Program-made: the position numbers and the translations under genes
NCBI RefSeq assembly: GCF_030845995.1
Contig: NZ_CP132719.1
Span: forward strand, 310,001-374,000
Direction of reading: 5' to 3'
DNA from: Geothrix sp. 21YS21S-4
GTDB taxonomy: Bacteria > Acidobacteriota > Holophagae > Holophagales > Holophagaceae
Length of the DNA stretch: 64,000 bases
The notes under the pieces: model-generated
Databases searched by the model: none
Told to the model about the DNA's origin: nothing
Seen by the model: only the letters and a program-made list of their open reading frames with translations
Shown here: positions 32,994 to 57,297 of the stretch, piece after piece
Position numbering within the stretch: position 1 is the stretch's first letter
Layout: each line of letters starts with the position of its first letter

Positions 32994-32996
32994 TCC

Positions 32997-34334: not shown

Positions 34335-34344
34335 GGAACTCGCC

Positions 34345-34929
34345 ATGGAGAAACCCGCCTACACACATCCCACCGCCGTCGTCGATGAGGGCGCCCAACT
34401 GGGCGAAGGCACCAAGATCTGGCACTTCTGCCATGTCTATCCCCAGGCCGTCATCGGAAAGCATTCCATTCTGGGCCAGAATGTCATGGTGGCCAATGGT
34501 GTCACCATCGGCGATCACTGTAAGATCCAGAATAATGTGAGTCTCTACGAGGGTGTAATCCTTGAGGACTATGTGTTCTGCGGTCCCAGCATGGTGTTCA
34601 CGAATGTGACCACCCCCCGCTGTCTCTTTCCCCGCAATACCAGTGAAGACTACCGGACCACCCGCGTGAAGCGGGGTGCCTCCATCGGCGCCAATGCTAC
34701 TATCGTGTGCGGGATCACTCTTCATGAGTGCGCTTTCGTGGCCGCGGGGGCCGTGGTGACGAAGGATGTTCCCCCTTATGCCATGGTGGCAGGGGTTCCG
34801 GCCCGGATCATTGGGTATATGTGCGAGCGTGGGGAGCGCCTAGCTTTTGATGACAGGGGCGAGGCGACAACCAGCTATGGCCAGAAGTACAGGAAGCACG
34901 CCCAGGGCCTTGTGGGCAAGGTGGATTGA
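34345..34929 (+). CDS. wbpD: WbpD-like UDP-3-amino-sugar N-acetyltransferase
   Basis: A 194-residue left-handed beta-helix acetyltransferase with hexapeptide repeats (AVIGKHSILGQNVMVANGVTIGDHC; GASIGANATIVCGITLHECAFVAAGAVV). WbpD acetylates the 3-amino group of UDP-GlcNAc(3NH2)A using acetyl-CoA. The start at ATG 34345 follows AAGGAA and is more family-like than the in-frame start nine codons earlier. The next gene (wbpE) begins at its stop codon (TGATG), so translation is coupled. The A-B-D-E enzyme set makes this role likely. Confidence 0.9.
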   Translation: MEKPAYTHPTAVVDEGAQLGEGTKIWHFCHVYPQAVIGKHSILGQNVMVANGVTIGDHCKIQNNVSLYEGVILEDYVFCGPSMVFTNVTTPRCLFPRNTSEDYRTTRVKRGASIGANATIVCGITLHECAFVAAGAVVTKDVPPYAMVAGVPARIIGYMCERGERLAFDDRGEATTSYGQKYRKHAQGLVGKVD

Positions 34930-36038
34930 TGAGTGCGCAGACGCAAATACCCATTCTCGATCTGAAGCCGCAGATCGAAAGCCTGTGGCCGGAACTCCAG
35001 GCCGCCTTCGAGCGGGTCATGAAGTCCGGCCACTTCATCATGGGGCCCGAAGTGAAGGCCTTCGAGGAAGAGGCGGCCGCCTACCTGGGCGTGAAGCATG
35101 CCATCGGTCTGAACTCCGGTACGGATGCTCTGTACATCGCCCTTCGGGCCCTCGGCGTCGGGCCCGGGGACGAGGTCATCACCACCCCCTTCACTTTCTT
35201 TGCTACTGCCGAGGCCATCAGCCATGTGGGTGCGATGCCGGTTTTCGTGGACATCGAAGAAGATTCGTTCAACATCGACCCCGACCTCATCGAGGCGGCT
35301 ATCACGGCGCGCACCAAGGCCATCATTCCTGTGCACCTTTTCGGTCGCCCTTGCGACATGGATCGCATTCTGGCCATTGCCGACAGACACGGGCTGAAGG
35401 TGGTGGAGGATTGTGCCCAAAGCTTCGGGGCCAAGTGGAAGGGGCGGCATACGGGATCCATGGGTATCTTTGGCTGTTACAGTTTCTTCCCCACCAAGAA
35501 TCTCAGCGCTTTTGGGGATGGCGGCATGATGGTTACCAACGACGAGGAACTAGCCGCCACAGCGCGCATGCTTCGGGTCCATGGGAGCCGGAAGAAGTAT
35601 TTCAACGAGACGGTCGGGTACAACTCGCGTATTGATGAATTACATGCGGCGATGCTGAGGGTGAAACTTCCTCATATTGATATATGGAATACCGCTCGAC
35701 GCCGAGCTGCCGATCGCTATAAAGGGTTGCTTGAGAACGTGCCTAGATTAATTTCACCGGAAGTTATCCATGGACATGTCTTCCATCAATACTCCGTACT
35801 GATTCCCGAAGATCGCCAAGATGAGGTACAAACCAGCCTCCAGGAAAGCGGCATCAGTACGATGGTCTATTACCCCGTGCCCTGCCATAAGCTTAAGCTT
35901 TATCAGGACTCTCATGCAGTTGTGACATGTCCGGTGGCCGAGGCTACATCACAGAAAATTCTGAGTCTGCCTATCTGGCCAGAAATAACGGAGGAGATTC
36001 AGCGTAGGATAGCTTTTGCTATTCGGCGATGCCTATAG
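34929..36038 (+). CDS. wbpE: WbpE-like PLP sugar aminotransferase
   Basis: A 369-residue DegT/DnrJ/EryC1-family enzyme transferring an amino group to the 3-keto sugar nucleotide. PLP site: Lys190 in FFPTKNLSAFGDGGM, Asp161 in VEDCAQSFGA, and the phosphate-binding LNSGTDAL (61-68). It follows wbpD with overlapping stop/start. Odd: the first roughly 690 bases use GC-rich codons, but from about 35,620 the gene becomes clearly AT-rich, like the genes after it. The break lies inside the reading frame and suggests recombination within the gene. The frame stays intact. Confidence 0.92.
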   Translation: MSAQTQIPILDLKPQIESLWPELQAAFERVMKSGHFIMGPEVKAFEEEAAAYLGVKHAIGLNSGTDALYIALRALGVGPGDEVITTPFTFFATAEAISHVGAMPVFVDIEEDSFNIDPDLIEAAITARTKAIIPVHLFGRPCDMDRILAIADRHGLKVVEDCAQSFGAKWKGRHTGSMGIFGCYSFFPTKNLSAFGDGGMMVTNDEELAATARMLRVHGSRKKYFNETVGYNSRIDELHAAMLRVKLPHIDIWNTARRRAADRYKGLLENVPRLISPEVIHGHVFHQYSVLIPEDRQDEVQTSLQESGISTMVYYPVPCHKLKLYQDSHAVVTCPVAEATSQKILSLPIWPEITEEIQRRIAFAIRRCL

Positions 36039-36126
36039 ATTCAATTGAAATTCTTGTGAGTGGACAAATGCTATTTGGAGCCGGATTTAAATTTTATTAG
36101 TATGAGAGCAGGAAATTAGGTGAATC

Positions 36127-37404
36127 GTGAGAATTAGAGTATTATATATTGATGGAGATGGGCCTTTTGGAGGAGCCTCGCGAAGCCTTTTTGAGGCCGT
36201 ACGTGCCTTATCTGTTGAAGCAGTAGAACCTTATTTTATCGCAGCACACGGAACAGCATTTGATTTTTATAAATTGGTAGCGAAGGATGCTATTAATACT
36301 CATGGATTGACAAAATTTGATAATACCCGATACGGCTTCTATCGTGGATTACGCTGGTTAGTGCTGCTACGTGAACTGGCTTATATTCCCCTATCAATCG
36401 TCGCAGTTTTTAGAGCATATTTCCGATGGGAGAAGGTCGATTTAATTCATGTTAACGAGTTTGTTTATATATTCCCCGCTTTATTGGCAAAGATTTTATT
36501 TCGCGTTCCTTTGGTTGTTCATATTCGGTCTGTGGTAGAGTCAGGGCATGGGCTGAAGAGGACAAAATGGCTCAATAGGGTATTGGCGAAGCAGGCAGAA
36601 GTGGTAATAGCTATTGATGAAAATACACGGGCTTCGATTCCACCGCATATGAAAGTTGAGGTTATTCATAATTCCTTCACTCCAAAATATATGCTTGAAT
36701 CTGATCTAGTTTTTGAGGAAAAACTGAAAAAATTGCGTTCGAGTTCTCTAAAAGTGGGATTTGTTGGCAACTTACATCATTCTAAGGGAATATTTGATCT
36801 CCTGGACGCCGCGCGAATTCTTAAGAGCCAGAAAGTTGATGTCGAATTTCTTATTGTAGGTTGGGTCACCATCCCAGATACAGGTCTCAAGGCTTGGTTA
36901 TTATCAAGAGCGGGACTGGCTCAAAATGTTCAGAGGGAGTTGGAAAATCGAATAATTCAATATGATATGAATGATTATTTCCATCTGCTTGGAGGGACCA
37001 AGGATATTCAGCGTGTTTACGAGGGTATTGATGTAATTGCTTTCCCTTCGCATTACGATGCGCCCGGAAGACCTGTTTTTGAGGCGGCTTTTTCGTATGT
37101 GCCAGCGATCGTTGCTGTGAATCAGCCGCAGGCTGATACATTGGTCCATGGGGAAACAGGGCTAGCGATTCCTGCAAGAGATCCGGAACAATTGGCAGCT
37201 GCGATTAGATATTTTTCTGAAAATCCTGAAGAAGTGATTCGCATGGGAAATAATGCCAAGGCCCTAGCAGAAGAAAATTTTGAGCCCCTAAAAAATGCCA
37301 ACCAATTGCTTGAAATTTACAAACATCTTGTCTTTTTTGGGGAGAAGGGGGCGAAGAGCGATATCACTCTTGCTTCAGGTGGAAAAAATGACGATGATTT
37401 GTAA
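36127..37404 (+). CDS. Glycosyltransferase family 4 (GT-B)
   Basis: A 425-residue GT-B glycosyltransferase, probably adding one sugar to the lipid-linked repeat unit on the cytoplasmic side. The glycine-rich N-terminal GPFGGASRSLFEAVRAL, the hinge KVGFVGNLHHSKGIFDLLDAA and the C-terminal GIDVIAFPSHYDAPGRPVFEAA (donor-binding E-x7-E type region) match GT4. GTG 36127 is the best start. The gene is strongly AT-rich compared with the flanking chromosome. An 88-bp AT-rich gap separates it from wbpE. Donor and acceptor are unknown. Confidence 0.85.
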   Translation: MRIRVLYIDGDGPFGGASRSLFEAVRALSVEAVEPYFIAAHGTAFDFYKLVAKDAINTHGLTKFDNTRYGFYRGLRWLVLLRELAYIPLSIVAVFRAYFRWEKVDLIHVNEFVYIFPALLAKILFRVPLVVHIRSVVESGHGLKRTKWLNRVLAKQAEVVIAIDENTRASIPPHMKVEVIHNSFTPKYMLESDLVFEEKLKKLRSSSLKVGFVGNLHHSKGIFDLLDAARILKSQKVDVEFLIVGWVTIPDTGLKAWLLSRAGLAQNVQRELENRIIQYDMNDYFHLLGGTKDIQRVYEGIDVIAFPSHYDAPGRPVFEAAFSYVPAIVAVNQPQADTLVHGETGLAIPARDPEQLAAAIRYFSENPEEVIRMGNNAKALAEENFEPLKNANQLLEIYKHLVFFGEKGAKSDITLASGGKNDDDL

Positions 37405-37440
37405 TCATGGTGGAGTGTGATTAATAGAAAGGAGAGTAAT

Positions 37441-38502
37441 ATGAGAATGAGGGATCTGGCTTTCAATCGAGAGATCTGCTTGGGAGGGCGAAAATTGGGG
37501 CAAACTGCCCCCATTTTTATAATTGCCGAAGCTGGGGTAAATCATGGAGGGAACCTTGCAAGTGCGAGGGAATTAATTGAGATTGCACAAGATGCGGGGG
37601 CAGATGCGGTTAAATTTCAGTTCTTTAAGGCCAATGAATTAATCGTTCCCGGGGTCGAAAAGGCGCCCTATCAGTTGGAAACTACGGGTTCGGGAGAAAC
37701 CCAATATGAGATGCTGAGAAAATTAGAGCTTTCAATTGAACAAACGGCCAATCTCCAATCAATATGTAAACAAATTGGGATCACCTTTTTAACCACTCCA
37801 TTTGATGAAGTGAGCCTTGCAGAACTTGATAGGTTGGATATGCCTGCCTATAAAATTGCTTCCACGGACATTACTAATCTTCCATATCTCCGAAGGGTGG
37901 CTCAGAAGGGTAAGCCAATGCTACTGTCCACTGGCATGGCTTATCAGGCTGAAGTAGATCTAGCGCTCACCGAAATTCATCCATTTAATCGAGATGTTGT
38001 TTTGCTCCAGTGTACAGCAAATTATCCTATCCAAGATGATGAGGCAAATTTAGCGGTTCTCGATACCTTTAGGGAATCCTATGACATCCTTCTTGGTTAT
38101 TCCGACCACACTCAAGGAATTGGGGCTGCTCCCTTTGCCATCCCATTTGGAGTGAAGGTAATCGAGAAACATTTCACTCTTGACAAGTCTTTAGCTGGGC
38201 CAGATCATCGCGCATCTCTCGATCCCGATGAATTTAAGGCTTTTGTGACCATGGTACGCAGAGTTGAAACTTATTTGGGTAGTGCAATTAAAATGCCCAA
38301 TTTATCTGAATTGCAGACGAGAAAAGCTCTTCAAAAAGCAATGGTTGCTAGCAGGGATATCGCTCAAGGGGAGATCCTGACGGAGAATAACCTGAAAGCA
38401 ATGCGAACTGGAGGAAAAGGGATCTCTCCGGCCTATTATCATAATATTATGGGCCAAAAAACCCGGCAGGCTTTCCGTAAAGGTGACATCATCGAGCTAT
38501 GA
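37441..38502 (+). CDS. neuB: NeuB-family nonulosonic acid synthase
   Basis: A 353-residue synthase condensing phosphoenolpyruvate with a six-carbon amino sugar to form a nine-carbon acid (sialic, legionaminic or pseudaminic type). TIM-barrel landmarks: IIAEAGVNHGGNL (about 27-39), DAVKFQFFK (55-63), TTPFD, YKIAS, LGYSDHT and VIEKHFTLD. The C-terminal SAF/antifreeze-like domain spans about 285-350 (RDIAQGEILTENNL). ATG 37441 follows GGAGAG. The exact sugar is unclear because NeuC/LegG-type precursor genes are absent here. Its stop overlaps the next start (ATGA). Confidence 0.9.
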   Translation: MRMRDLAFNREICLGGRKLGQTAPIFIIAEAGVNHGGNLASARELIEIAQDAGADAVKFQFFKANELIVPGVEKAPYQLETTGSGETQYEMLRKLELSIEQTANLQSICKQIGITFLTTPFDEVSLAELDRLDMPAYKIASTDITNLPYLRRVAQKGKPMLLSTGMAYQAEVDLALTEIHPFNRDVVLLQCTANYPIQDDEANLAVLDTFRESYDILLGYSDHTQGIGAAPFAIPFGVKVIEKHFTLDKSLAGPDHRASLDPDEFKAFVTMVRRVETYLGSAIKMPNLSELQTRKALQKAMVASRDIAQGEILTENNLKAMRTGGKGISPAYYHNIMGQKTRQAFRKGDIIEL

Positions 38503-39107
38503 GTGAAACTGTTTTGGTTGGAGCTGGAGGGCACGCCCGTGTCGTACTTACGACCTTACGCCTGAACGGCGTAAGGGTTGTAGGCATTTATGACGATGTT
38601 TCTCGCGGCGATCAGGAGTACATTTTGGGGGTTCCGGTCGTAGGTGGGCTTCATCAAGTTCCTACAGATGCCAATGTAATCCTAGCTTGTGGTGATATTG
38701 CCAGTCGAGCGAATTTTGCCGAACGATTTGCAAACCAGTTAGATTTAACCCCTATCATTCATCCTAGTGCCATTCTGGAGGCTGGTATTATACTGGGAGA
38801 CTATGTTCAGATTATGGGAGGGACCGTGATAAATGCGGGTGCGCAAATTGGGCGAGGGACACTGATTAATACGGGAGCGGTGATTGAACACGAGGCTGTA
38901 GTGGGAGAATTCTGCCATGTTTCCATAAACGCAGTTCTATGCGGGCGCGCAAAACTTGGGGATAGATGTTTCCTCGGGGCGGGGGCGGTGGTGCGGGACT
39001 GTGTATCTATCGCAGCTGGAGTGACGGTGGGTATCAACGGCGCCGTCACTAGAGATATTATAGAAGCTGGTATATATGCTGGAGTCCCAGCAAGGAAAAT
39101 TAAATGA
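38499..39107 (+). CDS. NeuD/PerB/PglD-family sugar N-acetyltransferase
   Basis: A 202-residue acyltransferase with an N-terminal Rossmann-like subdomain (VLVGAGGHARVVLTTLRLNGV) and a C-terminal left-handed beta-helix (ILGDYVQIMGGTVINAGAQIGRGTLINTGAVIEHE; His150-region acid/base style). Such enzymes acetylate amino groups of UDP-, GDP- or CMP-linked sugars. Two roles fit: GDP-perosamine N-acetyltransferase (PerB), given the perosamine synthase two genes later, or a NeuD-like sialate O-acetyltransferase beside neuB. Four-base overlaps on both sides show tight coupling. Confidence 0.85.
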   Translation: MSETVLVGAGGHARVVLTTLRLNGVRVVGIYDDVSRGDQEYILGVPVVGGLHQVPTDANVILACGDIASRANFAERFANQLDLTPIIHPSAILEAGIILGDYVQIMGGTVINAGAQIGRGTLINTGAVIEHEAVVGEFCHVSINAVLCGRAKLGDRCFLGAGAVVRDCVSIAAGVTVGINGAVTRDIIEAGIYAGVPARKIK

Positions 39108-39985
39108 TTTTTGTTTCTACATCATGTGTTCGGGCGCGTAAAATTGATGAAGCGGTTATTTTTCTAGCTGAAGCGGGATTCACGAACATTGAACTGAGCG
39201 GAGGGACGCAATATTATCCGTCTTGGAAGAATGATTTACTCAAACTTGCTCGATTATACAATCTTACCTATCGGTGCCATAATTATTTCCCCCCCCCGGA
39301 ACGCCACTTCGTTCTCAATATGGCGTCGCAGGATCAGAACCTTCGTCAACGCAGTATTGCATTTCATTTGGATGCGATTAGACATGCCGCTGACCTCGGC
39401 TCTGATACTTATTCCTATCATGCGGGATTCTATGTGGAAATTCAGCCGAATGAGATCGGTAAACCATTGGATGCTCGTACGGCAGCATCTACAGAATTAG
39501 CTGAATTACTTTATTTCCAAGGTCATGAGCGTGTTGCAAGAGAGGGGGAGCGCTTGGGAGTCCGACTGTTTATTGAGAACAATGTTTTGGGCCGGGCGAA
39601 TTTCATTACCTTTCAAGTGATCCCCTTTATGCTATTGACTTGGGAGGATGCTGAACGTCTACGCGCTAAGTACTCTTTCGACCTTCTTGTGGACTTGGCT
39701 CACCTAAAGGTTACTTGCGGTTCTCTGGGATTAGATTTTCAGGCCCAAGCACGGCGCTTCCTGACAGAAGCGGAATATGTTCATATTAGCGACAATGATG
39801 GATTCGAGGATACTAACGATGGTTTACTATCCGAATCGGATGTCCTCGAAGTTCTCGCAAAAACGCGATTTCTCTCTCGTCATATCACGCTCGAAGTTTA
39901 TAGGGACCTTCCGACCATTAGTCATTCTCATAGACTGGTCGAAGGTCTGGACTGCCCTCCCCCGCACGGAGTCATCTCTCGATGA
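39104..39985 (+). CDS. TIM-barrel sugar isomerase/epimerase-like protein
   Basis: A 293-residue member of the xylose isomerase-like TIM-barrel superfamily (AP endonuclease 2 family). Metal ligands of the fold are apparent: His in TYSYHAGFYVE, Glu in LFIENNVL, Asp-His in DLAHLKVTCG, His in YVHISDNDG and Glu in ITLEVYRD. It is locked between the acetyltransferase and the perosamine synthase by four-base overlaps, so a role on a sugar intermediate is likely. I know no characterised O-antigen enzyme of exactly this type; it might supply an epimer for the NeuB-type synthase. Confidence 0.75.
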   Translation: MIFVSTSCVRARKIDEAVIFLAEAGFTNIELSGGTQYYPSWKNDLLKLARLYNLTYRCHNYFPPPERHFVLNMASQDQNLRQRSIAFHLDAIRHAADLGSDTYSYHAGFYVEIQPNEIGKPLDARTAASTELAELLYFQGHERVAREGERLGVRLFIENNVLGRANFITFQVIPFMLLTWEDAERLRAKYSFDLLVDLAHLKVTCGSLGLDFQAQARRFLTEAEYVHISDNDGFEDTNDGLLSESDVLEVLAKTRFLSRHITLEVYRDLPTISHSHRLVEGLDCPPPHGVISR

Positions 39986-41073
39986 AATACCCGATTTATT
40001 TACCAGAAATTACCACTCGGGAGAAGGAACTTGTCCTCGAGTGCCTCGACAGTACCTGGATCTCATCTCGAGGACGCTTCATTGAAGAGTTTGAACGACG
40101 GGTGGCCGAGTATGTGGGAGTTCGCCATGCTATCGCGGTCATGAATGGAACTGTGGCGCTTCATCTGGCCGTCCTAGCTGCTGGGATTGGCCCTGGCGAC
40201 GAGGTGATTCTGCCCGATTTTACATATATCGCCAGCGCGAATGCAGTGCGCTATGCAGGGGCTGTTCCAGTGTTAGCGGATGTTGATCCCGAAACGTGGA
40301 ATATGGGTGTTGAGCAAATTTTGCCGTGCCTCACTCCGCGTACCAAGGCGATCATGACAGTCGACGTATATGGGATGCCGCCGGATATGGATCCCATCCT
40401 TAAGCTTGCGAGGCAGCGTGATCTCGTAGTCATTGAGGATGCCGCAGAATCTTTGGGGGCTGAATATCGTAATCGCAGGGCGGGGAATCTGGGCAATATC
40501 GGAGTGTTGAGCTTTTTCGGAAACAAGACCATTACCACTGGCGAGGGCGGGATGGTTGTCACGGATGACGACCATTCCGCCGGCGTCATTCGTCAACTCA
40601 GGAACCAGGGGAATTCAGAGACGACTCGCTACTTCCATGATCTCCTAGGGTTCAATTATAGGATGACTAACATTCAGGCCGCCATAGGTTGCGCTCAGAT
40701 GGAGAGGTTGAACCGAATCTTGGAAAGGAAGCGAGAGATCCAGGACCTTTACCGCGAGAATCTGGAGGAATGGTTCACCTTCCAGCGGATCGAAGAGGGT
40801 TGCCGCTCATCCCACTGGATGGTGAGTCTCATGGCTCGGGATGCAGGGACTCGTGAACGCGTTATGTTGGGACTGAATCGCGCGGGAATTGAGACGCGAC
40901 CCTTCTTCCTGCCGGTCCACTCCATGCCTTTCTACCCCAGCCAGGAGGACTCGCCGGTGACGGTGGATATTTCTTCGCGGGGCTTCAACCTTCCCTCCTA
41001 TCACTTACTTCGGGACGAGGATGTCCTTGAGATCTGCAAAGAAGTCCGTATTTGCGCCGGAGCAACCTCATGA
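39982..41073 (+). CDS. per: GDP-perosamine synthase (DegT family aminotransferase)
   Basis: A 363-residue PLP enzyme converting GDP-4-keto-6-deoxymannose to GDP-perosamine. The match to Per/RfbE is close: the N-terminal [39 protein letters not shown], Asp153 in [12 protein letters not shown], and PLP Lys182 in [15 protein letters not shown]. The GDP-mannose 4,6-dehydratase gene follows with overlap (ATGA), which strongly supports this substrate. Codons shift from AT-rich at the start towards GC-rich near the end. A LegC/PseC-type aminotransferase is the less likely alternative. Confidence 0.88.
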
Positions 41074-42098
41074 GTAAAAAGGCATTTATTACAGGTATTA
41101 CCGGACAAGATGGGTCGTACCTTGCCGAGTTGTTGCTTGAAAAGGGATATGAGGTTCATGGCCTCGCACGGCGATCCAGCCTGGAGGTGAAGCTACGGAT
41201 TGATCATCTGCTCCAGGATATCCACGAAAAGGGGAATCGATTCTTTGTTCACTACGGCGATATGACGGATTCTTCAAATCTCGTCCGACTGCTACAGGAG
41301 TTGCAACCCGACGAGATCTACAATCTGGCCGCGCAGAGCCATGTTCGCGTCTCCTTTGAGACGCCCGAGTACACGGCCAACGCGGATGCGATAGGAACCC
41401 TCCGACTTCTCGAGGCAATCAGAATCCTCAAAATGCAGAATTCCGTGAAGTTCTACCAAGCTTCTACGAGCGAGCTGTACGGTAAAGTGGACGAGACTCC
41501 GCAGCGGGAGACCACACGGTTCTATCCCAGGAGTCCCTACGGGGTGGCCAAGCTCTATGCCTACTGGGCCACGGTGAATTATCGGGAGGCCTATGACATC
41601 TTCGCTTCCAACGGAATCTTGTTCAATCATGAATCTCCACGACGCGGCGACAGCTTCGTGACTCAAAAAATTGCTCTAGGGGTGCGCGACATCGTACAGG
41701 GCAAGCGGGATCGAATCTATATGGGGAACATCTATGCTAAGCGGGATTGGGGCTATGCTCCCGATTATGTGGAGGCCATGTGGATGATGCTCCAGCATGA
41801 CCGTCCGGATGATTTTGTCGTGGCGACGGGGGAGACCCACACAGTAAAGGAGTTTATCGAGAAGTGCTTCGCCTTTACTGGGAAAAGCCTTGCCTGGGAA
41901 GGGGAGGGAGTAGAAGAGAAGGCTATTGATACCTCCACCGGAAGAAGTGTGATCCTGATCGACCCGTGGTACTTCCGCCCGACTGAAGTTGACCTTCTTG
42001 TCGGTGATCCTACAAAGATTCAGCAAAAACTCGGCTGGCGGCCCAAAGTAAAATTCGACGGTTTGGTCGAGATCATGATGAGAGAGGTGCTGAAGTAA
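41070..42098 (+). CDS. gmd: GDP-mannose 4,6-dehydratase
   Basis: A 342-residue extended short-chain dehydrogenase making GDP-4-keto-6-deoxy-D-mannose. NAD motif [19 protein letters not shown] (residues 9-27), [15 protein letters not shown], the active site TSELYGKV with [10 protein letters not shown] (Tyr-x3-Lys), and [13 protein letters not shown], all diagnostic for GMD. ATG 41070 overlaps the per stop. No GDP-mannose-forming genes (manA/B/C) are in this window, so GDP-mannose must come from elsewhere. Confidence 0.95.
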
Positions 42099-42138
42099 GC
42101 ATGTCCATGAGTACAGTGTTTGCATAAGGATGTAGAAT

Positions 42139-42867
42139 ATGATCCATGGGAAGATAGTGTTGGCGGTTATTCCCGCGCGGGGCGGCAGCAAGGGATTACC
42201 AGGTAAAAATATTCGTCCGGTGGCGGGCAAGCCGTTACTGGCTTGGTCCATAGAAGCTGGGCTTCAAAGCCGCTATGTAGATTATCTAGTCGTCAGTACT
42301 GATTCTCCTGAGATTGCGGCGGTGGCAGAAAGCCATGGCGCTGAGGCCCCTTTTCTTCGTCCCGATAGCCTGGCCTCAGATACTGCCGGCCACGCGGAGG
42401 TGATGCTTCATGCCCTGGATTGGATGGAGGTGAACCGCAATGTCCAGGCAGATTATTTGGTGATGCTGGAGCCTACCAGTCCCTTGCGAGACGCGAAGGA
42501 TGTGGATCTGGCTCTCGAGGTCATTGAGGCTCGGCAAGAAAATGGAAGCTTGGTAGGTGTTTGCCGAACGGAAGCAGCCCATCCGGCTTTCCTTTGTCAG
42601 CTTGAGAACGGATTCGTCCGTCCGTTCAACAGTGAGCGTTTTGTCTTCAAGCGTAGACAGGAGCTTGATAATCTTTATTTTTTCGAGGGCTCCATCTACA
42701 TCTCAAAAGTATCCCTTTTTAGAACTCAGCGCTCTTTTTATCATGAATGGACTGTTCCGTTTGAAGTCCCCAAGTGGAAATCCTTTGAAGTAGACGATGT
42801 TGTTGATTTATTGCTAATTGAGCGTTTACTGGAGTTAAAACTGGCCCATTGCGAGGCCCTTAACTAG
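42139..42867 (+). CDS. neuA: CMP-nonulosonate cytidylyltransferase (NeuA/LegF/PtmB-like)
   Basis: A 242-residue CMP-sugar synthetase that activates the NeuB product with CTP. The nucleotide-binding motif IPARGGSKGLPGKNIRPVAGKPLLAW (about 11-36), VVSTDSPEIA and MLEPTSPLR are hallmarks. The C-terminal region DNLYFFEGSIYISKV and FEVDDVVDLLLIERLLE match the LegF/PtmB/SpsF-like short group rather than long animal-type enzymes. It is followed directly by a class III aminotransferase. The sugar specificity cannot be read from sequence. Confidence 0.88.
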   Translation: MIHGKIVLAVIPARGGSKGLPGKNIRPVAGKPLLAWSIEAGLQSRYVDYLVVSTDSPEIAAVAESHGAEAPFLRPDSLASDTAGHAEVMLHALDWMEVNRNVQADYLVMLEPTSPLRDAKDVDLALEVIEARQENGSLVGVCRTEAAHPAFLCQLENGFVRPFNSERFVFKRRQELDNLYFFEGSIYISKVSLFRTQRSFYHEWTVPFEVPKWKSFEVDDVVDLLLIERLLELKLAHCEALN

Positions 42868-42880
42868 GTTGGATGGGTAT

Positions 42881-44173
42881 ATGAATTATTCCCAGCGTTT
42901 GAATCGTGTTATTCCTGGTGGCGGACACACTTACAGCCGCGGCGATGATCAATATCCTTCTAATGCACCCCATATCCTACAGCGGGCCAAGGGGGCCTAT
43001 GTATGGGATCCAGACGGCAACCGCTATCTCGATTATGGCATGGCTCTCCGAGCGGTGACCATTGGTTATGGTTACGAGCCCGTCGTCATGGCTGCCATGG
43101 AGCAGGCGCTCTATGGCAATAACCTTACTCGCGCTTCGATAGTAGAGTTGGAGGCCGCAGAGGCCTTCTGCAACCTAATTCCTTCCGTAGAGATGGTCAA
43201 ATTTGGGAAGAACGGATCTACGGTTACTACAGCCGCAGTAAAGCTGGCACGCTCCTATACTGGCCGTTCCTTGGTGGCTATTTGCGCCCAGCATCCTTTC
43301 TTCTCTTATGACGACTGGTTTATCGGGGCCACGGCCCTTCCTAAAGGCGTTCCAGAAGCATTCCAGGAACTCACTAAGAAATTCAGTTACAATGACATCA
43401 CCTCCCTAAGCGCCCTTTTCGCAGAGAATCCTGGCCAGATTGCCTGCGTGATCCTCGAGCCTGCCGCGGCGGTACCTCCCAAGGATGGCTTTCTGCAGAA
43501 GGTACGAGATCTTTGCCACTTGAATGGAGCGGTGTTTATCCTTGACGAAATGATCACTGGCTTCCGGTTTCATCTTCAGGGAGCCCAGGTCTTATTCGAT
43601 GTTCAGCCGGATCTTTGTACCTTTGGCAAGGGTATGGCTAACGGTTTCTCTGTCGCGGCGCTTGCAGGTAAGCGCGAGATTATGGAGCTGGGCGGTATTA
43701 AGCAGGACGGAATGGAGCGTACTTTTCTGGTCAGTACCACCCATGGTGCGGAGATGTGCGGCATGGGCGCTCTATTAAAGACTATCCAGTGTTATAAGGA
43801 ATTGGGTGTCGTGGAGCACCTCTGGGCCTACGGCGAAAAGTTGGTGAACGGAATGAATGATGTGGCCAGAGAACTAGGCATCGAATCCGCTTTTCAAGTG
43901 GAGGGATATCCTTGCTCCCCCAATTACGTTACTCGGGACGCCAAGGGCGAGGTTTCCCTTGAATTCCGGACTCTATTTCACCAGGAGATGATTCGTAACA
44001 AGGTCTTGATTCCCTGGATGGCCTTGTGTTACCAGCATGGTAATGAGGAATTAGATCTTACCCTAACAGCGGTCCGCGCAAGCTTGCAGGTATATCGGAA
44101 GGCTTTGGAAGATGGTGTAGGGGGTTACTTAGAAGGCCGCGCTATCCGACCTGTGTTCCGTCGTTATAACTGA
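42881..44173 (+). CDS. Class III (GSA-aminomutase-like) aminotransferase in a sugar cluster
   Basis: A 430-residue PLP enzyme of the glutamate-1-semialdehyde aminomutase group. PLP Lys250 in CTFGKGMANGFSVAAL, Asp222 in FILDEMITGFRF, and the N-terminal RVIPGGGHTYSRGDDQYP typical of GSA-like enzymes. It is unlikely to be HemL: it sits between neuA and an amidase, in the middle of glycan genes, and the substrate-loop region NGSTVTTAAVKLAR differs from the usual HemL motif. I recall fusions of similar domains to SpsF-like cytidylyltransferases, which would support a glycan role. ATG 42881 is chosen; TTG 42869 is possible. Confidence 0.85.
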   Translation: MNYSQRLNRVIPGGGHTYSRGDDQYPSNAPHILQRAKGAYVWDPDGNRYLDYGMALRAVTIGYGYEPVVMAAMEQALYGNNLTRASIVELEAAEAFCNLIPSVEMVKFGKNGSTVTTAAVKLARSYTGRSLVAICAQHPFFSYDDWFIGATALPKGVPEAFQELTKKFSYNDITSLSALFAENPGQIACVILEPAAAVPPKDGFLQKVRDLCHLNGAVFILDEMITGFRFHLQGAQVLFDVQPDLCTFGKGMANGFSVAALAGKREIMELGGIKQDGMERTFLVSTTHGAEMCGMGALLKTIQCYKELGVVEHLWAYGEKLVNGMNDVARELGIESAFQVEGYPCSPNYVTRDAKGEVSLEFRTLFHQEMIRNKVLIPWMALCYQHGNEELDLTLTAVRASLQVYRKALEDGVGGYLEGRAIRPVFRRYN

Positions 44174-44184
44174 GGAGAGAGCGC

Positions 44185-44922
44185 TTGAGGATCGGTTTGG
44201 TCCAATTAGACACTGTCTGGGAGAAGCCCACAGATAGCAAGACACGCATTGAGAGGCTTCTGGATTCTACCCAAGGCCGCTTCGACCTTCTGGTATTTCC
44301 AGAGATGACGCTGACTGGTTTCTCCATGAAGCGTGAAAGGGCTACGCTTTCTGCTGAGGACCATACCTTCTTCAAGTCCTTGGCCGCCAGAACATCCTGC
44401 TTTGTTGTTTACGGAGGGGTGGAGGAAGATCAAAACCGTTTGATGGTGGTGGGGCCATCCGGCCGGCGCATGGGTTCCTATGCCAAGCGACATCTCTTCA
44501 GCCATGGAGGGGAAAAGGCAGTCTACCGACCCGGTTCGGGCCTCCTTACCCTTGACCTCGGCGGAGTGGAGGCCGGGTTTGCCATTTGTTACGACCTACG
44601 GTTCCCCTACGACTTCTGGGCCATGGCTGAACGCTGTCAAATGATGATTGTGATCGCCAACTGGCCGGAATCTCGACGTGAGCACTGGATGGCGCTGCTC
44701 CGTGCCCGAGCGATTGAGAACCAGGTTTTCATCGTGGGCGTGAACCGTGTTGGAAGAGATCCGGAATTGGCCTATAGTGGGGACTCCAGCGTCCATTCTC
44801 CTCTCGGCGAGATTCTCCTCCAATGTGGTAGTAAGGAAGGCGTTTATACGATAGAAATCGATCCTGCAGAGATTGCCCAAGTGCGAAGTCGGTTCAAGTT
44901 TATGGCTGACCGACTTGCTTAG
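44185..44922 (+). CDS. Nitrilase-superfamily amidase (omega-amidase-like)
   Basis: A 245-residue carbon-nitrogen hydrolase with the full catalytic triad: Glu40 in LVFPEMTLTGFS, Lys101 in YAKRHLFSHGGE, and Cys135 in AICYDLRFPYDFW. The closest pattern is the YafV/omega-amidase branch, which hydrolyses small amides such as alpha-ketoglutaramate. It starts at TTG 44185 behind GAGGAGAG, 11 bases after the class III aminotransferase, so the pair is probably co-translated. It might remove an amide formed in amino-sugar synthesis or recycle an amino donor; this is speculation. Confidence 0.85.
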   Translation: MRIGLVQLDTVWEKPTDSKTRIERLLDSTQGRFDLLVFPEMTLTGFSMKRERATLSAEDHTFFKSLAARTSCFVVYGGVEEDQNRLMVVGPSGRRMGSYAKRHLFSHGGEKAVYRPGSGLLTLDLGGVEAGFAICYDLRFPYDFWAMAERCQMMIVIANWPESRREHWMALLRARAIENQVFIVGVNRVGRDPELAYSGDSSVHSPLGEILLQCGSKEGVYTIEIDPAEIAQVRSRFKFMADRLA

Positions 44923-44937
44923 CCGAAAATTAATTTG

Positions 44938-46254
44938 ATGGGATACGTATTGCCGCTACGACTTGGAGCCTTGAAAAAGCTGTTTGAGAATTCCTTAGTG
45001 CGACATTCCATTCTTTTTATCGGAGCGGAAATTCTCAGCAAAGCCCTGCCTTTCCTGCTTCTTCCTGTTCTGACTCGATTCTTTTCGCTGGCAGACTACG
45101 GACTGGTGGCAACTTTCCTAGCCTTCCAAAACATCATGGCGGTGCTCACCGGACTATCCTCCCATGGAGCAGTCAATGTTGCCTATTTCCGGATGGGAAA
45201 GGAGTATCTCCCGCCCTACATCGCTTCTGTAATGGGGGTGCTTTCCCTCTCTCTCGGTATATCCATTTTGCTAGCTACCGCCATCTTTCCCTGGCTTGCA
45301 CCGCGTCTGGGGCTTGGCTGGGGATGGTTAGCTACCGGCGTGGTTATGTCGGCCGCTCAGTTCGTTACCCAAATCAACTTGGTGCTTTGGCAGTGCGAAA
45401 GGCGACCTCTCCCCTTCGTGATCTATCAACTTGCACAGACATTTGTTGGAGTGGGGCTGACTATCCTTCTGGTCGTAATTTTCCGCTGGGGCTGGCGCGG
45501 ACAGCTCGCTTCCCTGGCTTTTTCCTCTTTTCTCTTCGCCGCTCTCAGTTTAGTGATTCTCTGGCGGAGAGGCTATCTTCAGGCCCGCCCCAATGCTAGG
45601 GACATGAAGGATGCTGTGCGTTTCGGCGCCCCACTTATCCCTCACTCTCTTTCTGGTTGGGTGCTTACAGGAATTGATCGATTTTTCCTCACATCTATGG
45701 TCGGAGCCTCCGCAACCGGCCTTTATGCTGCCGGATTCCAGATCGGGATGATCTTGGGAGTAGCGGCCACGGCGTTCAATCGGGCTTGGATGCCCTATCT
45801 GTTCGAGAAACTGGCTGGGGACGATGCAGCCGCCAAAATCCGAATTGTCAGGATTACATACATATATTTTGGGGCTATTCTCGTAGGAGTAGGTCTCCTT
45901 GCCGTTTTCGCTCCGGTAGTGGCGGGGATCATCCTAGGCCCCAGGTTTACCGGAGCTACAGTTTATATCTTTTGGTTTGGCTTGGCCTTCGCATTTAATG
46001 GGATGTACTTCATGGTGGTTAACCAATTGCTATACGTTAAGAAGACTCATGTCTTGGCTACAATCACCTTTTGCATCGGATTTTTGCACATCGGTCTTAC
46101 CTATGGATTGATCAAAATTCGTGGTCCTTTAGGGGCCTCTCAAGCTGTCGCCATATCCTTCGCATTGCAGTTCTTGCTCGTCTGGATTGCCAGCGCCCGG
46201 GCGTGCCCCTTGCCTTGGAACCTGCTGAAACAGTACGCCACGGAACTCGAATGA
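44938..46254 (+). CDS. wzx: Wzx-type O-antigen flippase
   Basis: A 438-residue polytopic membrane protein (about 12 hydrophobic segments) of the polysaccharide transporter family. It should move undecaprenyl-linked repeat units across the inner membrane. The N-terminal HSILFIGAEILSKALPFLLLPVLTRFFSLADYGLVATFLA is typical of Wzx/RfbX, as is GIDRFFLTSMVGASATGLYAAGFQIG in the middle. ATG 44938 is used. The next gene starts within its stop codon (ATGA). Confidence 0.92.
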   Translation: MGYVLPLRLGALKKLFENSLVRHSILFIGAEILSKALPFLLLPVLTRFFSLADYGLVATFLAFQNIMAVLTGLSSHGAVNVAYFRMGKEYLPPYIASVMGVLSLSLGISILLATAIFPWLAPRLGLGWGWLATGVVMSAAQFVTQINLVLWQCERRPLPFVIYQLAQTFVGVGLTILLVVIFRWGWRGQLASLAFSSFLFAALSLVILWRRGYLQARPNARDMKDAVRFGAPLIPHSLSGWVLTGIDRFFLTSMVGASATGLYAAGFQIGMILGVAATAFNRAWMPYLFEKLAGDDAAAKIRIVRITYIYFGAILVGVGLLAVFAPVVAGIILGPRFTGATVYIFWFGLAFAFNGMYFMVVNQLLYVKKTHVLATITFCIGFLHIGLTYGLIKIRGPLGASQAVAISFALQFLLVWIASARACPLPWNLLKQYATELE

Positions 46255-47660
46255 GGACCTTGGACGAACTGCTCGACTGTGAAGTTCGGGCCGGAGTGTT
46301 CAATGCCTGTTCAACCGATGGGAAAATGTTCTTCTGGCCTTTTATCCGTCATCCTATCCTCCTTGCTTACATAGAACAAGCGACTGGAACAGTGGCAGCC
46401 CACGCCATAGGGGGGCGGGGAAACCCCCTCCGCATGGCTAAGTATCTTGCCCAGACTCTCTGGTGGCACCCCACTCGGGTTCGGGAGGCACCACTCCTCT
46501 TTCTGTCGAGTGGGGCTGTGAACATGCTTCATGGGAAGGTCTACCGGAACCGGCTCCACGACCATTTCTTGCGGATCTTGCCACCAGGTAGCGTGAATAT
46601 AATTGAGGATTCATTTCAGTGGACCTACCGTCGGCCGCGAGAAGTGCCGGTCCTCTACCACGATCTAGCCCAAATTCAGGCCAATATTTTAGGGTGTGTC
46701 AGTGGGCTCCGAAATCCGGATAGGAAGAAAGAGATCGATGCATTCATCGCATATACGCAGGCCTATTTCCCCCAGCCAGCACCTCTTGGGCTATGGGAAA
46801 CCGCACGGGAGGATTTACTTCGTTTCGCTTGCAACCTCCCGCATTATCATGATATATATAAGCGCATCTTAGAACGAGCTCAGCCCCGGCTTCTTTGTCT
46901 TGATAATGCCTGCTACGGCCGCAGGGCATACATTCTCAGAATTGCGCGAGAGATGGGTATCCAAACTGGAGAGTTTCAGCACGGCCTCATTTCTCCCGCC
47001 CATCCGGCCTACAACTATCCGAAGGAGGTAACCGAGAGTCACCCATATACGGTATATCTACCACAAACCATCCTTACTTTCGGTTCTTACTGGTCGGACT
47101 GTATACGGGTTCCGGTGGAGAAGGTTCCAGTGGGGTTCTCCTACTTGCAGGAAGAAGCAGCGAAGAGCGCTCTGTCTCCCCAGCTGGATGTCCTCGTTAT
47201 TTCAGATGGTGTGAATCCGCAGACGTACATCGACCTGATTTCTGCCTTAGCAGAGCAAGATCCCTCGCTCAGGATTTGCTTCAAGATGCATCCGGGTGAG
47301 ATGCCCTTTGCGGAGCGGCGGTACGCCCGGTTGATGGGAATACCTCAGGTACGATTAGCAGGGCCCGAGCCAATCTACGGCCTCATCGGCGCTGCGCGAT
47401 ATGTAGTCGGTTGTTTTTCTACAGCCCTCTACGAAGCTCTGGCCTTCGGTAAGCGCCCTTTTGTCCTGGATAATGAGTTGAGCCGCCAGCACATCCATGG
47501 GGATATCTTCATCCGCTTTCAGGATGCTTCCGATCTCATCGAACGTCTACGACTTGCCCAAGCCCCCGGTGAGGCCAAAAAAGAAATGGGTGCATATTGG
47601 GCCCAGGATGGAGACTTGAGGTTTCTCAATTTAGTGGAGCCATTTTTGAATCATGCGTGA
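46251..47660 (+). CDS. Putative GT-B glycosyltransferase of the surface-polysaccharide type
   Basis: A 469-residue soluble protein. The C-terminal half looks like a GT-B donor domain: VLVISDGVNPQTYIDLI, ICFKMHPGE, then GLIGAARYVVGCFSTALYEALAFGKRPFVLDN. Similar segments occur in polysialyltransferase-like and CDP-glycerol-transferase-like enzymes. The middle segment GEFQHGLISPAHPAYNYP contains a conserved-looking His. It starts at ATG 46251, overlapping wzx. Because a CMP-activated sugar is likely made in this cluster, it is a candidate nonulosonate transferase; sequence alone cannot prove this. Confidence 0.65.
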   Translation: MRTLDELLDCEVRAGVFNACSTDGKMFFWPFIRHPILLAYIEQATGTVAAHAIGGRGNPLRMAKYLAQTLWWHPTRVREAPLLFLSSGAVNMLHGKVYRNRLHDHFLRILPPGSVNIIEDSFQWTYRRPREVPVLYHDLAQIQANILGCVSGLRNPDRKKEIDAFIAYTQAYFPQPAPLGLWETAREDLLRFACNLPHYHDIYKRILERAQPRLLCLDNACYGRRAYILRIAREMGIQTGEFQHGLISPAHPAYNYPKEVTESHPYTVYLPQTILTFGSYWSDCIRVPVEKVPVGFSYLQEEAAKSALSPQLDVLVISDGVNPQTYIDLISALAEQDPSLRICFKMHPGEMPFAERRYARLMGIPQVRLAGPEPIYGLIGAARYVVGCFSTALYEALAFGKRPFVLDNELSRQHIHGDIFIRFQDASDLIERLRLAQAPGEAKKEMGAYWAQDGDLRFLNLVEPFLNHA

Positions 47661-47720
47661 GGAAGACTTCTTCGGATCCGATCCGGTGGTATGGATATGA
47701 GTTAGATAGGAGGAGGTGAA

Positions 47721-48497
47721 ATGGAGAGGCTTCGAGACAAGGTGGTGGTGCTTACGGGTGGAGCGGGCTTGATTGGGCAGGCGCTGGCCCGCGCGATCAT
47801 CGCGGAAGGAGCGATCTTGGTGCTCACCGACATTGACACCTTTAGGGGGCTAGAGGCCATTGAAGCTCTAAAGGCCGAGGGATACCCAGGGCATGCCGAT
47901 TACCACAGCCTGGATATCACATCCAAAGCCTCTGTCCGCGGACTATTGGAGAGAGTGACGGTCGCCCACGGTCGGATCGATGCTTTAGTGAACAATGCCT
48001 ACCCCCGCAATGGGCATTACGGTCGACGCCTCGAAGAAGTAGAATATGAAGACTTCTGTGAGAATGTGAGTCTTCACCTGGGTGGTTACTTTCTGGCTAC
48101 CCAGCAGTTTGCTCTGTATTTTAGAGACCAGGGGTTTGGGAATATCGTCTCCCTCTCATCGATCTATGGTGTAGTCGCTCCCCGATTCGACGTCTACGAG
48201 GGGACCGGAATGACGATGCCGGTGGAATACGCTGCGATCAAATCGGCTCTGCTGCACCTACAACGATATTTTGCGAAGTATTTCAAGGGGAGTCCGATAC
48301 GATTCAACTGTTTGAGTCCAGGAGGAATCTTGAACAGACAACCCGAGGAGTTTGTAACTCGGTACAAGATTTATGCACAATCTAAGGGGATGCTGGACGC
48401 TTCAGACCTCGGGGGAGCTCTGGTATTTCTCCTCAGCGACGAGTCTCGCTATGTGAATGGGCAGAACCTCATCGTAGACGATGGTTGGCATCTTTGA
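47721..48497 (+). CDS. ptmA: PtmA-like short-chain dehydrogenase
   Basis: A 258-residue SDR oxidoreductase. Cofactor motif TGGAGLIG (12-19), NNAY in place of NNAG (91-94), and catalytic Ser146/147, Tyr170 and Lys174 (YAAIK). The segments VNNAYPRNGHYG, HLGGYFLATQQFA, MTMPVEYAAIKSALLHL and VNGQNLIVDDGWHL closely resemble Campylobacter PtmA, a flagellin-modification enzyme tied to legionaminic acid. This supports a nonulosonate product. It is the last plus-strand gene of the locus. Its 3' end overlaps the minus-strand polymerase gene by 29 bases. Confidence 0.85.
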   Translation: MERLRDKVVVLTGGAGLIGQALARAIIAEGAILVLTDIDTFRGLEAIEALKAEGYPGHADYHSLDITSKASVRGLLERVTVAHGRIDALVNNAYPRNGHYGRRLEEVEYEDFCENVSLHLGGYFLATQQFALYFRDQGFGNIVSLSSIYGVVAPRFDVYEGTGMTMPVEYAAIKSALLHLQRYFAKYFKGSPIRFNCLSPGGILNRQPEEFVTRYKIYAQSKGMLDASDLGGALVFLLSDESRYVNGQNLIVDDGWHL

Positions 48498-49743
48498 CCA
48501 ACAGTCCTGCGAGAACTAGGAAGAGAAAGTCATAGGGGGCTAGAAAGCTGCCATAGACCAGCATGGCCGTAAGAAGGATCAAGCCTGTCCCCATGGGAAG
48601 AAGATCCATCGGTTTTTCCAGACCCCGATGGATCATACTCCAGATGTCCGCCATCAGAAGGGCGAGAGGTGCTCCCACTCGAGCGAACATCCCTGTCAAC
48701 CAAGCCTCGGATCCAGTAGTCGCCCCCTCCAATAACTCATCCATAATTGTCACGTTTTTGAGGTTAAAAGTGCCGATGCCAAAAAATGGATTCTGACCAG
48801 CCAAGCGGAGATGTTCGGTCCATAGCCACACCCTGAATATGCTTTTCTTAGCTTCATCTGAGCTGCCGATGCTTTGGGTAGAGCGGAATAAGAACCGATT
48901 CAATGTGTCTCCCCCCCAATCGGAGAGGTAGAAGAGGATCTGGTCGGCTTGGAGGAGGAGGATCAAACAGAGAATGGCTAGGGGAAGGTAGACCATCTGG
49001 AAAGAAGTTCGAACTATAACCCTCCTGCGAACTAGAATTAGAAAAAGTATTGCGAACCCGGTCGCGATCAGGGCCGACCGGACCATGGAGAAAATGAGGA
49101 AATAGGCTCCTATGGTTAGGCATATTCTTCGAAAAGGGGCGGTTTTTTTAATGGCATTGAGAGTGATAATAATGGCAGAAAAAAAACCCGTCGTAGCAAT
49201 AAATGGCGTAAACCCCGCTCGAAATACGGGCTCACCAAGGGGTTCCGTCCCTGGCCATGCTCCATAGGGGGCGAGACCCAGGATGTTCAAAGTAATGCCA
49301 ACTAACACGGAGGTGAGGAAAAGACCGTTTAAGAGTGTTGGTGAAACGGAGAGTTCAAGGGAGAAGATTGTGAAGAAGGTTAAACCGATTAATCCGCATG
49401 CAGTGATAGTCGCGATATCGCCGCGCAGGAGCGCCACGCTAGTGACGAGGGCGGTGAAGCCGAGCGTCAATGCGCCTGAGGTCTTCGTTCCACGCCTCAC
49501 CAAAGCTTGGATTGTCCCAAGAATAGCAAAGAGGGAAACAGGAAACAGCGTCAGGACATACAGGATAGAATCTCGCGCGAGTTCCATCTCTGTTGGTATG
49601 CAATATTGAATAAAGCAGTAATAGATCACTAGCCCCGAAAAGCAGCGTTGCATCAGGGGAGAAGCGGGGTGATGAGCAGGGAATCTCTTCAATGGGCGCT
49701 GGGAGTTAAAGGAAAGAGTTGCGAGAGCCAAGAGGACTCTCAA
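48469..49743 (-). CDS. wzy: Wzy-type O-antigen polymerase
   Basis: A 424-residue polytopic membrane protein with about ten hydrophobic segments and a large periplasmic loop (about residues 270-345) between helices, as in Wzy/O-antigen ligase proteins. The FGIGTFN near residue 325 matches the common loop motif (N-x-F-G-x-G). Wzy proteins are poorly conserved, so the call rests on topology and locus. The start is uncertain: 49743 is the longest; internal ATGs at 49653 and in MELARDS (about residue 53) are alternatives. It is AT-rich and last in the minus-strand arm. Confidence 0.8.
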   Translation of the reverse strand: MRVLLALATLSFNSQRPLKRFPAHHPASPLMQRCFSGLVIYYCFIQYCIPTEMELARDSILYVLTLFPVSLFAILGTIQALVRRGTKTSGALTLGFTALVTSVALLRGDIATITACGLIGLTFFTIFSLELSVSPTLLNGLFLTSVLVGITLNILGLAPYGAWPGTEPLGEPVFRAGFTPFIATTGFFSAIIITLNAIKKTAPFRRICLTIGAYFLIFSMVRSALIATGFAILFLILVRRRVIVRTSFQMVYLPLAILCLILLLQADQILFYLSDWGGDTLNRFLFRSTQSIGSSDEAKKSIFRVWLWTEHLRLAGQNPFFGIGTFNLKNVTIMDELLEGATTGSEAWLTGMFARVGAPLALLMADIWSMIHRGLEKPMDLLPMGTGLILLTAMLVYGSFLAPYDFLFLVLAGLLVKDANHRLR

Positions 49744-50071
49744 GGAGGGCAGTGATATCCTATCATCAGACTACAGGAGATCCTAGGCTTGATCGGAGAT
49801 TTATCAGCATCCCGAATTGTTTTGCATATGTATTGGGGTGATTTCAGAGTTCTCCGTTCCGTAGATAATTCTATCCTGGCAAATTATAGTACCTCCGCCG
49901 ATCTGTTATCTGGATGCCAATTAAACCTCATCTTCCTCCAAGGCGACATGCATCACAGGCGTCGTTACAAGAAAGATCGAAAATATACTTCAGCGGGTTT
50001 TGAATCAAGGGGAATAACTCTTCCAAGTGTGGCCCTATTTCTACGATTATTATAGATCCTTATTCTATTTC
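49744..50071. other. 328-bp AT-rich spacer between wzy and the wbuB-like gene
   Basis: Both flanking genes are on the minus strand. The stretch is AT-rich without a convincing gene: an open frame of 88 codons on the plus strand (49789-50055) has no ribosome site, no family resemblance and a random composition. The gap may hold a promoter for wzy or be a remnant left by cassette exchange. Confidence 0.5.
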
Positions 50072-54681: not shown

Positions 54682-55464
54682 TCAATGTGTAGGGAGGGCC
54701 TTCATGACAAGCTCGTCCTTGGCGGAAGGGTTCGGATAGTTGATCAAGACGGCACGATAGGGCCCTTTGAACACGAATAGGCTGCCGGCGGCGGCACCCA
54801 CGATTCCACAAGCCTCTACGAGAAGGCGAATGTCATGGAGGGATCCAGCCCCGCCGAGAAGAGTGATGGGAACATGGACGGCTTGGCGGACGGTTCGTGC
54901 CAGATCGAGGTCATATCCCTTTCCGATCCCATCGCGGTCGATCGCATTGATGACGATTTCGCCAGCTCCGAGTGATTCGACTTCCTGGGCCACATCCACG
55001 AGGGATCGTCCCGTATTCCGCTGACCGTTGTGTGTCCAGATCTCATAGACGCCCCCCTTGGGTCCGGACCGGACGTCGAGTACCACCACGACACTCTGCG
55101 CTCCGATTTCGCTGGAGGCCTCACGGATGAGGGCCGGGCGTTCGATGGCGGCCGAACTGATGGCCACCTTTTCGACCCCGAGCCCGATGATTTTTCTCGC
55201 CTGGTCGGCCCTCTTGACCCCGCCGCCGTAGCAGAGAGGCATCCGACACTCGGCAGCCAGGTTGGCAATCAGTTTGAAATTAGGCTCGATTTGGTGGACC
55301 GTGGCGTCGATATCCAGGACCGCCAGCTCGTCCGTTTCCTTTTCGTTGAAGATTTTGACCGCGTTGATGGGATCGCCGACGTATCTCGGCGCCTTGAATT
55401 CAACTGTCTTGACTAGTCCACCTTGGTGGACGAGCAGACAAGGGATGATCCGGGGACGGAGCAT
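54682..55464 (-). CDS. hisF: HisF2-type cyclase subunit for sugar amidination
   Basis: A 260-residue (beta/alpha)8 protein of the HisF family. Catalytic acids: Asp in LAVLDIDATVH and Asp in INAIDRDGIGKGYD. GGGVKRADQARKIIGLGVEKVAISSAA is the phosphate-binding half-barrel. It is divergent from housekeeping HisF and sits with HisH- and WbpG-like genes inside a glycan locus, as in Pseudomonas aeruginosa O5. There HisH2/HisF2 are thought to supply ammonia to WbpG for forming an acetamidino group. No other his genes are nearby. Confidence 0.9.
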   Translation of the reverse strand: MLRPRIIPCLLVHQGGLVKTVEFKAPRYVGDPINAVKIFNEKETDELAVLDIDATVHQIEPNFKLIANLAAECRMPLCYGGGVKRADQARKIIGLGVEKVAISSAAIERPALIREASSEIGAQSVVVVLDVRSGPKGGVYEIWTHNGQRNTGRSLVDVAQEVESLGAGEIVINAIDRDGIGKGYDLDLARTVRQAVHVPITLLGGAGSLHDIRLLVEACGIVGAAAGSLFVFKGPYRAVLINYPNPSAKDELVMKALPTH

Positions 55465-55466
55465 CG

Positions 55467-57232: not shown

Positions 57233-57297
57233 GGGTAACCTCGCCACTAAACACTGAACGTTGGTGGGTGCCTTCTTAACTCTCTAATCCCTGAGCC

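Follow-up and report, generated by a model that had tools for sequence, protein, structure and literature searches.

In the described glutamine transaminase/omega-amidase tandem, a class I aminotransferase of the KAT/YbdL type (or MtnE) is coupled to an amidase of the YafV/MtnU/Nit2 kind, as in methionine salvage. KAT and omega-amidase have been named as a working pair (PMC9309667), and a review of methionine salvage presents the hydrolysis of ketoglutaramate as a ratchet whose scope 'may go far beyond' this one pathway (PMC6302742). Among surface-sugar loci, the legionaminic acid clusters of Campylobacter and Plesiomonas (PtmA, PtmF, PtmE, LegB-LegI) are tabulated without a class III aminotransferase or an amidase (PMC4481668). 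In the O-antigen cluster of Legionella pneumophila serogroup 6 (Lp6_763-768), a 'glutamate-1-semialdehyde aminomutase' adjoins an acylneuraminate cytidylyltransferase and PseG, and no nitrilase or amidohydrolase is named (PMC3694923). Within the open-access literature, of which our coverage is incomplete, we found no paper linking an omega-amidase with surface-sugar aminotransferases. Neither the ratchet nor the two enzyme superfamilies are new; what appears to be new, within the literature searched, is the pairing with a class III enzyme and its place in a surface-sugar locus.

We analyzed a stretch of 64,000 nucleotides from Geothrix sp. 21YS21S-4 (NZ_CP132719.1, positions 310,001 to 374,000), hereafter the window. 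It carries, on the + strand, a gene for a class III (HemL-like) PLP aminotransferase of the PRK06209 family (AT3; 42881-44173; NF004856, PF00202), followed by a gene for a nitrilase-superfamily amidase (NIT; 44185-44922; PF00795, NF007757) that, judging by model scores and a tree, belongs to the YafV, omega-amidase-like branch. The AT3 frame runs from an ATG start through 430 codons to a TGA stop, and the NIT frame from a TTG start behind AGGAGAG through 245 codons to a TAG stop. The genes point in the same direction and are separated by 11 bp, while 12 bp separate NIT from the flippase gene starting at 44935. Both frames are real genes, with family scores far above chance. The first-pass annotation had described two genes 11 bp apart, placed after neuA and equipped with full catalytic residues, and all of this is borne out: the preceding gene encodes a CMP-sugar cytidylyltransferase (42139-42867), and the PLP lysine Lys250 of AT3 and the Glu40, Lys101 and Cys135 of NIT are all in place. 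NIT also has Glu110, the fourth nitrilase glutamate, which is invariant across six aligned sequences.

The + strand run of genes from NeuB to a PtmA-like short-chain dehydrogenase (SDR) is a nonulosonic-acid (NulO) operon, for a surface sugar resembling sialic acid, in a low-GC island. It starts with a NeuB-type nonulosonate synthase with NeuB and SAF domains (37417-38502; PF03102, 286 bits; TIGR03569, 384 bits, just under the cut-off of 399.65), which is 58% identical to the NeuB of locus L255 (G171:C30). There follow a NeuD/PglD-type sugar N-acetyltransferase (38499-39107; TIGR03570, 172.9 bits, passing the cut-off of 160.8), a xylose-isomerase-like TIM barrel (39104-39985; PF01261), a DegT-type sugar aminotransferase closest to LegC (39982-41073; PF01041; TIGR04181, 367 bits, under the cut-off of 420), a GDP-mannose 4,6-dehydratase (41052-42098; TIGR01472, 556 bits, passing the cut-off of 415) and a NeuA/PseF-like CMP-nonulosonate cytidylyltransferase (42139-42867; PF02348; PseF model TIGR03584, 155.5 bits, under the cut-off of 206). 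Downstream of AT3 and NIT come a Wzx-type flippase (44935-46254; PF01943) and the PtmA-like SDR (47721-48497; NF006619, 335 bits, passing the cut-off of 255). Between these two lies an open frame of about 490 amino acids (46176-47660) without a Pfam match; in locus L234, a flippase gene is followed by a gene weakly similar to it.

The GC content is 50% in the 36-48.5 kb region, against 66-69% in two stretches sampled elsewhere in the 3.08-Mb genome, and none of 46 other genomes of the genus carries an AT3 scoring over the family cut-off. Inside the window, GC is 42-54% between 36001 and 50000 and 61-71% in the first 32 kb. The region 36001-50000 is likely a horizontally acquired O-antigen island. 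Other sugar genes lie on both sides of the operon. Consecutive + strand genes at 31944-36038, encoding a Gfo/Idh oxidoreductase, a UDP-sugar dehydrogenase, a hexapeptide acetyltransferase and a DegT aminotransferase, resemble the WbpB-A-D-E set for UDP-2,3-diacetamido-glucuronic acid. On the - strand, at 54682-57247, HisF-like, HisH-like and PseA/WbpG-type N-acetyl sugar amidotransferase genes follow one another, a trio thought to convert N-acetyl into acetamidino groups on sugars; many related loci also have this trio in the neighborhood of AT3 (L035, L043, L088, L256).

The operon shares a PtmA-like SDR, NeuB, NeuD, a LegC-like DegT enzyme and NeuA with the legionaminic clusters, but it has a GDP-mannose dehydratase and a TIM barrel, and no PtmE/LegG-type gene next to NeuB. 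The Ptm/Leg pathway set is incomplete here: from 37.4 to 48.5 kb we saw no LegB and no gene of the PtmE or LegG type. The TIM-barrel gene occupies the slot that a LegG-type epimerase has in legionaminic clusters, as it also does in L037, L093 and L255. A related locus, L035, encodes a LegB-like dehydratase, a LegC-like DegT enzyme, a NeuC-type epimerase, NeuB, NeuD, a PtmE-like protein and NeuA, along with a PtmF-like Gfo/Idh oxidoreductase, AT3 and a PtmA-like protein. L255 matches the window closely in gene order without NIT (NeuB-NeuD-TIM-x-DegT-NeuA-Gfo/Idh-AT3-SDR, x being another gene).

AT3 belongs to a family that is usually labeled HemL. In HemL (glutamate-1-semialdehyde 2,1-aminomutase), E406 is catalytic and R32 is the substrate arginine, and the N217 loop and the gating loop are further features of the enzyme. 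AT3 resembles HemL in fold, PLP lysine and R32, but lacks the E406 segment, the N217 loop and part of the gating loop. It scores 666 bits against NF004856/PRK06209, above the curated cut-off of 486, versus 196 bits against the true HemL model TIGR00713, below the cut-off of 527.3. In all 11 aligned members of the AT3 family, deletions remove the E406 segment and the N217 loop, the gating loop is shortened by nine residues, and the position of R32 holds R or K, being R in the window AT3. The same genome has a hemL elsewhere as a separate gene, with E406 and a full gating loop. On the missing HemL residues and this separate gene, we rejected AT3 as a second HemL. In a VIA fold search, the AlphaFold model of AT3 (pLDDT 81) matched the FumI aminotransferase with Z 43.8 (rmsd 2.1, 398 aligned residues) and HemL with Z 41.8 (rmsd 2.2, 391 aligned). 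By its sequence, AT3 is best classed as a class III PLP enzyme that is not a HemL. Nor is it a KAT/YbdL- or MtnE-type aminotransferase: the known tandem uses class I enzymes, whereas the window's predicted enzyme is class III and HemL-like (PF00202), and sits in a nonulosonate operon.

We collected 61 AT3 loci from a scan of a genome collection, and 43 more stretches from four phyla and three plasmid records. AT3 occurs in two settings: NulO clusters that also hold NeuB, a cytidylyltransferase, DegT and a PtmA-like SDR, and CDP-deoxysugar C-methyl clusters, which include a DUF4910 protein. Loci of the second kind (L045-L055, L218-L222, L257, L258) encode glucose-1-phosphate cytidylyltransferase, an NAD epimerase, a C-methyltransferase, an RmlC-like epimerase, a PIG-L deacetylase and DUF4910; they are common in Nitrospira and on Rhizobium and Agrobacterium plasmids, where AT3 is annotated as HemL. 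Among homologs of the window genes, the most frequent same-strand neighbor of AT3 is the PtmA-like SDR (11 loci), followed by NIT (7 loci).

NIT is a member of the CN_hydrolase superfamily by score (PF00795, 125 bits, cut-off 23), by its Glu-Lys-Cys triad and by fold. Its best NCBIfam model is NF007757/YafV, at 137 bits with the next best at 83, a score below the equivalog cut-off of 249; the AT3-linked NITs tested against this model scored 129-170 bits. In a nitrilase tree of 38 sequences, NIT shares a supported clade (97/92) with X. campestris 2e11 and with E. coli YafV, annotated as a 2-oxoglutaramate amidase, and the deaminated-glutathione amidases (represented by a partial ybeM frame, a pseudogene in E. 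coli MG1655, and by the L043 gene) and the Pyrococcus nitrilase lie outside. Inside this clade, NIT comes together with YafV and with the NITs adjacent to YbdL/KAT at 92/88, although the exact inner positions are uncertain owing to several long rows. The 97/92 split thus places NIT in the YafV-like branch and excludes the deaminated-glutathione amidases, an identity that we also rejected for the window NIT on model score (63 vs 137 bits). Fold does not separate the nitrilase activities, several of which fall within about one Z unit: the top VIA matches of the AlphaFold model (pLDDT 84) were 3p8k and 2e11 (Z 29.6) and mouse Nit2 (Z 28.8).

The likeness to the known tandem lies in an aminotransferase gene standing beside a YafV-branch amidase gene, and relatives of NIT in the same class have exactly the arrangement of that tandem. 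In the genomes read, the closest of these (40-43% identity) lie directly downstream of YbdL/KAT-type aminotransferases. The neighbor in L142, from the same class, scores 404 bits against the PRK09082 methionine-aminotransferase model, nearly reaching the cut-off of 420, and that in L141, from another phylum, passes it with 594 bits. Together with the literature pair, this agrees with the starting premise that omega-amidases elsewhere partner glutamine transaminases. The Geothrix genome encodes a second YafV-type nitrilase, 37% identical to NIT (G000:917334-918089; L098:9278-10099, - strand). Its gene adjoins that of an FAD oxidoreductase, without an aminotransferase, and is present across the genus.

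A YafV-type NIT lies within about 10 kb of AT3 in 10 of 103 loci (fetched as stretches of about 20 kb), and is directly adjacent on the same strand in seven of them (L036, L061, L062, L066, L073, L217, L232); in L050, L060 and L225 the distance is 7-9 kb. This count leaves out a gene of the deaminated-glutathione-amidase type 10 kb from AT3 in L043. In Brocadia (L055/L129), NIT is found 17 kb downstream of AT3 on the same strand. Control NeuB loci from AT3-less genomes, drawn from only two of the same phyla, had no NIT (0/40), a modest contrast with the AT3 loci (Fisher p = 0.033; 0.064 with near-copies collapsed). Since 32 of these 40 controls encode a DegT aminotransferase, NIT tracks AT3 and not DegT. 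The acetamidino genes (HisH/HisF) showed no consistent pattern with NIT. Where NIT is present, it adjoins AT3 more often than expected if about 17 places per locus are equally likely (7/10, p ~3e-5; collapsed, 5/8, p ~1e-3). From genome averages, 0.37 NITs would be expected against the 10 seen, a yardstick only, as it ignores operon clustering and relatedness. Besides the window, the pairing recurs in Victivallales, Nitrospirota, Bacteroidota, Gemmatimonadaceae and Nitrosomonadales. At E<=1e-20, no NIT was detected anywhere in 17 of 46 AT3 genomes tested, incomplete drafts among them, so NIT is an optional partner of AT3.

The pairs do not share one origin. On the NIT tree, those linked to AT3 occupy at least three distinct branches: the window's own, one with L036, L217, L060 and L232 (and weakly L050, L129 and L225), and the Gemmatimonadaceae trio, which lies near S. 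aureus 3p8k outside the main clade and scores equally against the YafV and deaminated-glutathione-amidase models (138 vs 138 bits). The NIT of L073 was unplaced. Mapped onto the AT3 tree, the presence of NIT requires at least seven changes. The gene order NeuA-AT3-NIT-PtmA of L217 (Nitrospirota), and NeuA-AT3-NIT-x-PtmA of L036 (Victivallales), is shared by the window, where PtmA also comes later, with a NIT from a different lineage. That the same type of amidase has been recruited again and again next to a single aminotransferase family argues most strongly for coupling; the recurrence of separate pairings suggests, at the level of gene context, that AT3 and NIT work together, and the recurrence statistics and trees favor functional coupling over chance. 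The first-pass view of the pair as a coupled unit in a glycan operon stands in part: AT3 is a non-HemL enzyme of sugar clusters and its pairing with NIT recurs in other phyla through several independent recruitments, but adjacency is limited to 7 of 103 AT3 loci and many AT3 genomes lack NIT. Conservation of the pair, on which the proposal had been staked, is recurrent but restricted.

We propose that AT3 arose from a HemL-like class III branch and acts as a sugar-pathway aminotransferase in nonulosonate biosynthesis, probably working with the PtmA-like dehydrogenase and perhaps on a keto-sugar intermediate made by it. AT3 would transfer the alpha-amino group of glutamine (or asparagine) to the keto-sugar, and NIT would hydrolyze the leftover alpha-ketoglutaramate (or ketosuccinamate) to 2-oxoglutarate (or oxaloacetate) and ammonia, which would pull the reversible transamination towards the amino sugar. 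The gene anatomy, the family placements, the loss of HemL-specific residues and the recurrent independent pairing are observed; from them we infer the glutamine donor, the sugar position aminated, the keto-sugar acceptor, ketoglutaramate as NIT substrate and the ratchet role. We consider such a ratchet in nonulosonate synthesis plausible, if somewhat short of probable. Against it, the second YafV-type nitrilase of the Geothrix genome could clear ketoglutaramate, and most AT3 loci are without NIT, so that AT3 does not generally need it. In NIT-less genomes AT3 may work alone, since ketoglutaramate also cyclizes spontaneously (PMC6302742), or may use other donors.

Other roles for the pair fit parts of these data. 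NIT might act on the nonulosonate, or on an amino acid decorating it, by trimming or editing an N-acyl, carbamoyl or carboxamide group, with AT3 making or using the same side chain. The nitrilase fold takes many amides, the solved neighbors of the NIT model are tied in Z across activities, and AT3 clusters frequently hold acyl- or amidine-modifying genes (HisH/HisF/N-acetyl sugar amidotransferase, e.g., in L035 and L256) as well as the DUF4910 protein. We nevertheless find this rather unlikely: the AT3-adjacent NITs are mostly of the YafV-like branch and not of other nitrilase branches, relatives in the same class pair with aminotransferases outside sugar clusters, and acetamidino genes are present in many NIT-less AT3 loci. 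It is also unlikely that NIT is an omega-amidase for general glutamine/methionine metabolism or for the DegT enzyme, placed next to a glutamate-using AT3 by co-transfer of a small module. The clusters are mobile, as the low GC and the absence of AT3 from the 46 same-genus genomes indicate, and NIT lies 7-17 kb from AT3, without adjoining it, in L050, L060, L225 and Brocadia. Yet the control NeuB loci lack NIT despite their DegT aminotransferases, NIT sits beside AT3 above random placement, and with at least three NIT lineages a single transferred module is insufficient.

We give little credence to a chance neighborhood, in which an O-antigen island picked up a nitrilase gene and retained it for unrelated nitrogen scavenging; the recurrence across the taxa listed above, with 10 NITs where about 0.4 are expected, outweighs for us the varied gene content of such islands and the lack of the pairing in some 90% of AT3 loci. 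Least credible of all is a HemL-like aminomutase that moves an amino group within a sugar intermediate with no external donor. HemL enzymes are the closest sequences to AT3 and among its closest folds, and R32 is kept in the window AT3, but the deletions and the shortened gating loop are found in 11 of 11 aligned family members, and an omega-amidase would have no role beside an aminomutase.

We keep the glutamine-driven ratchet as the preferred reading for the window. The wider claim, that bacteria have repeatedly recruited an omega-amidase ratchet for glutamine-dependent amination of nonulosonate or deoxysugar precursors by a misannotated HemL-like aminotransferase family, is possible, and we hold it more tentatively. 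The proposal yields simple, testable enzyme predictions. If it is true, a widespread family of aminotransferases, whose members in surface-sugar clusters are routinely called HemL, would gain a role, and the transaminase/omega-amidase ratchet would extend to surface glycan synthesis.
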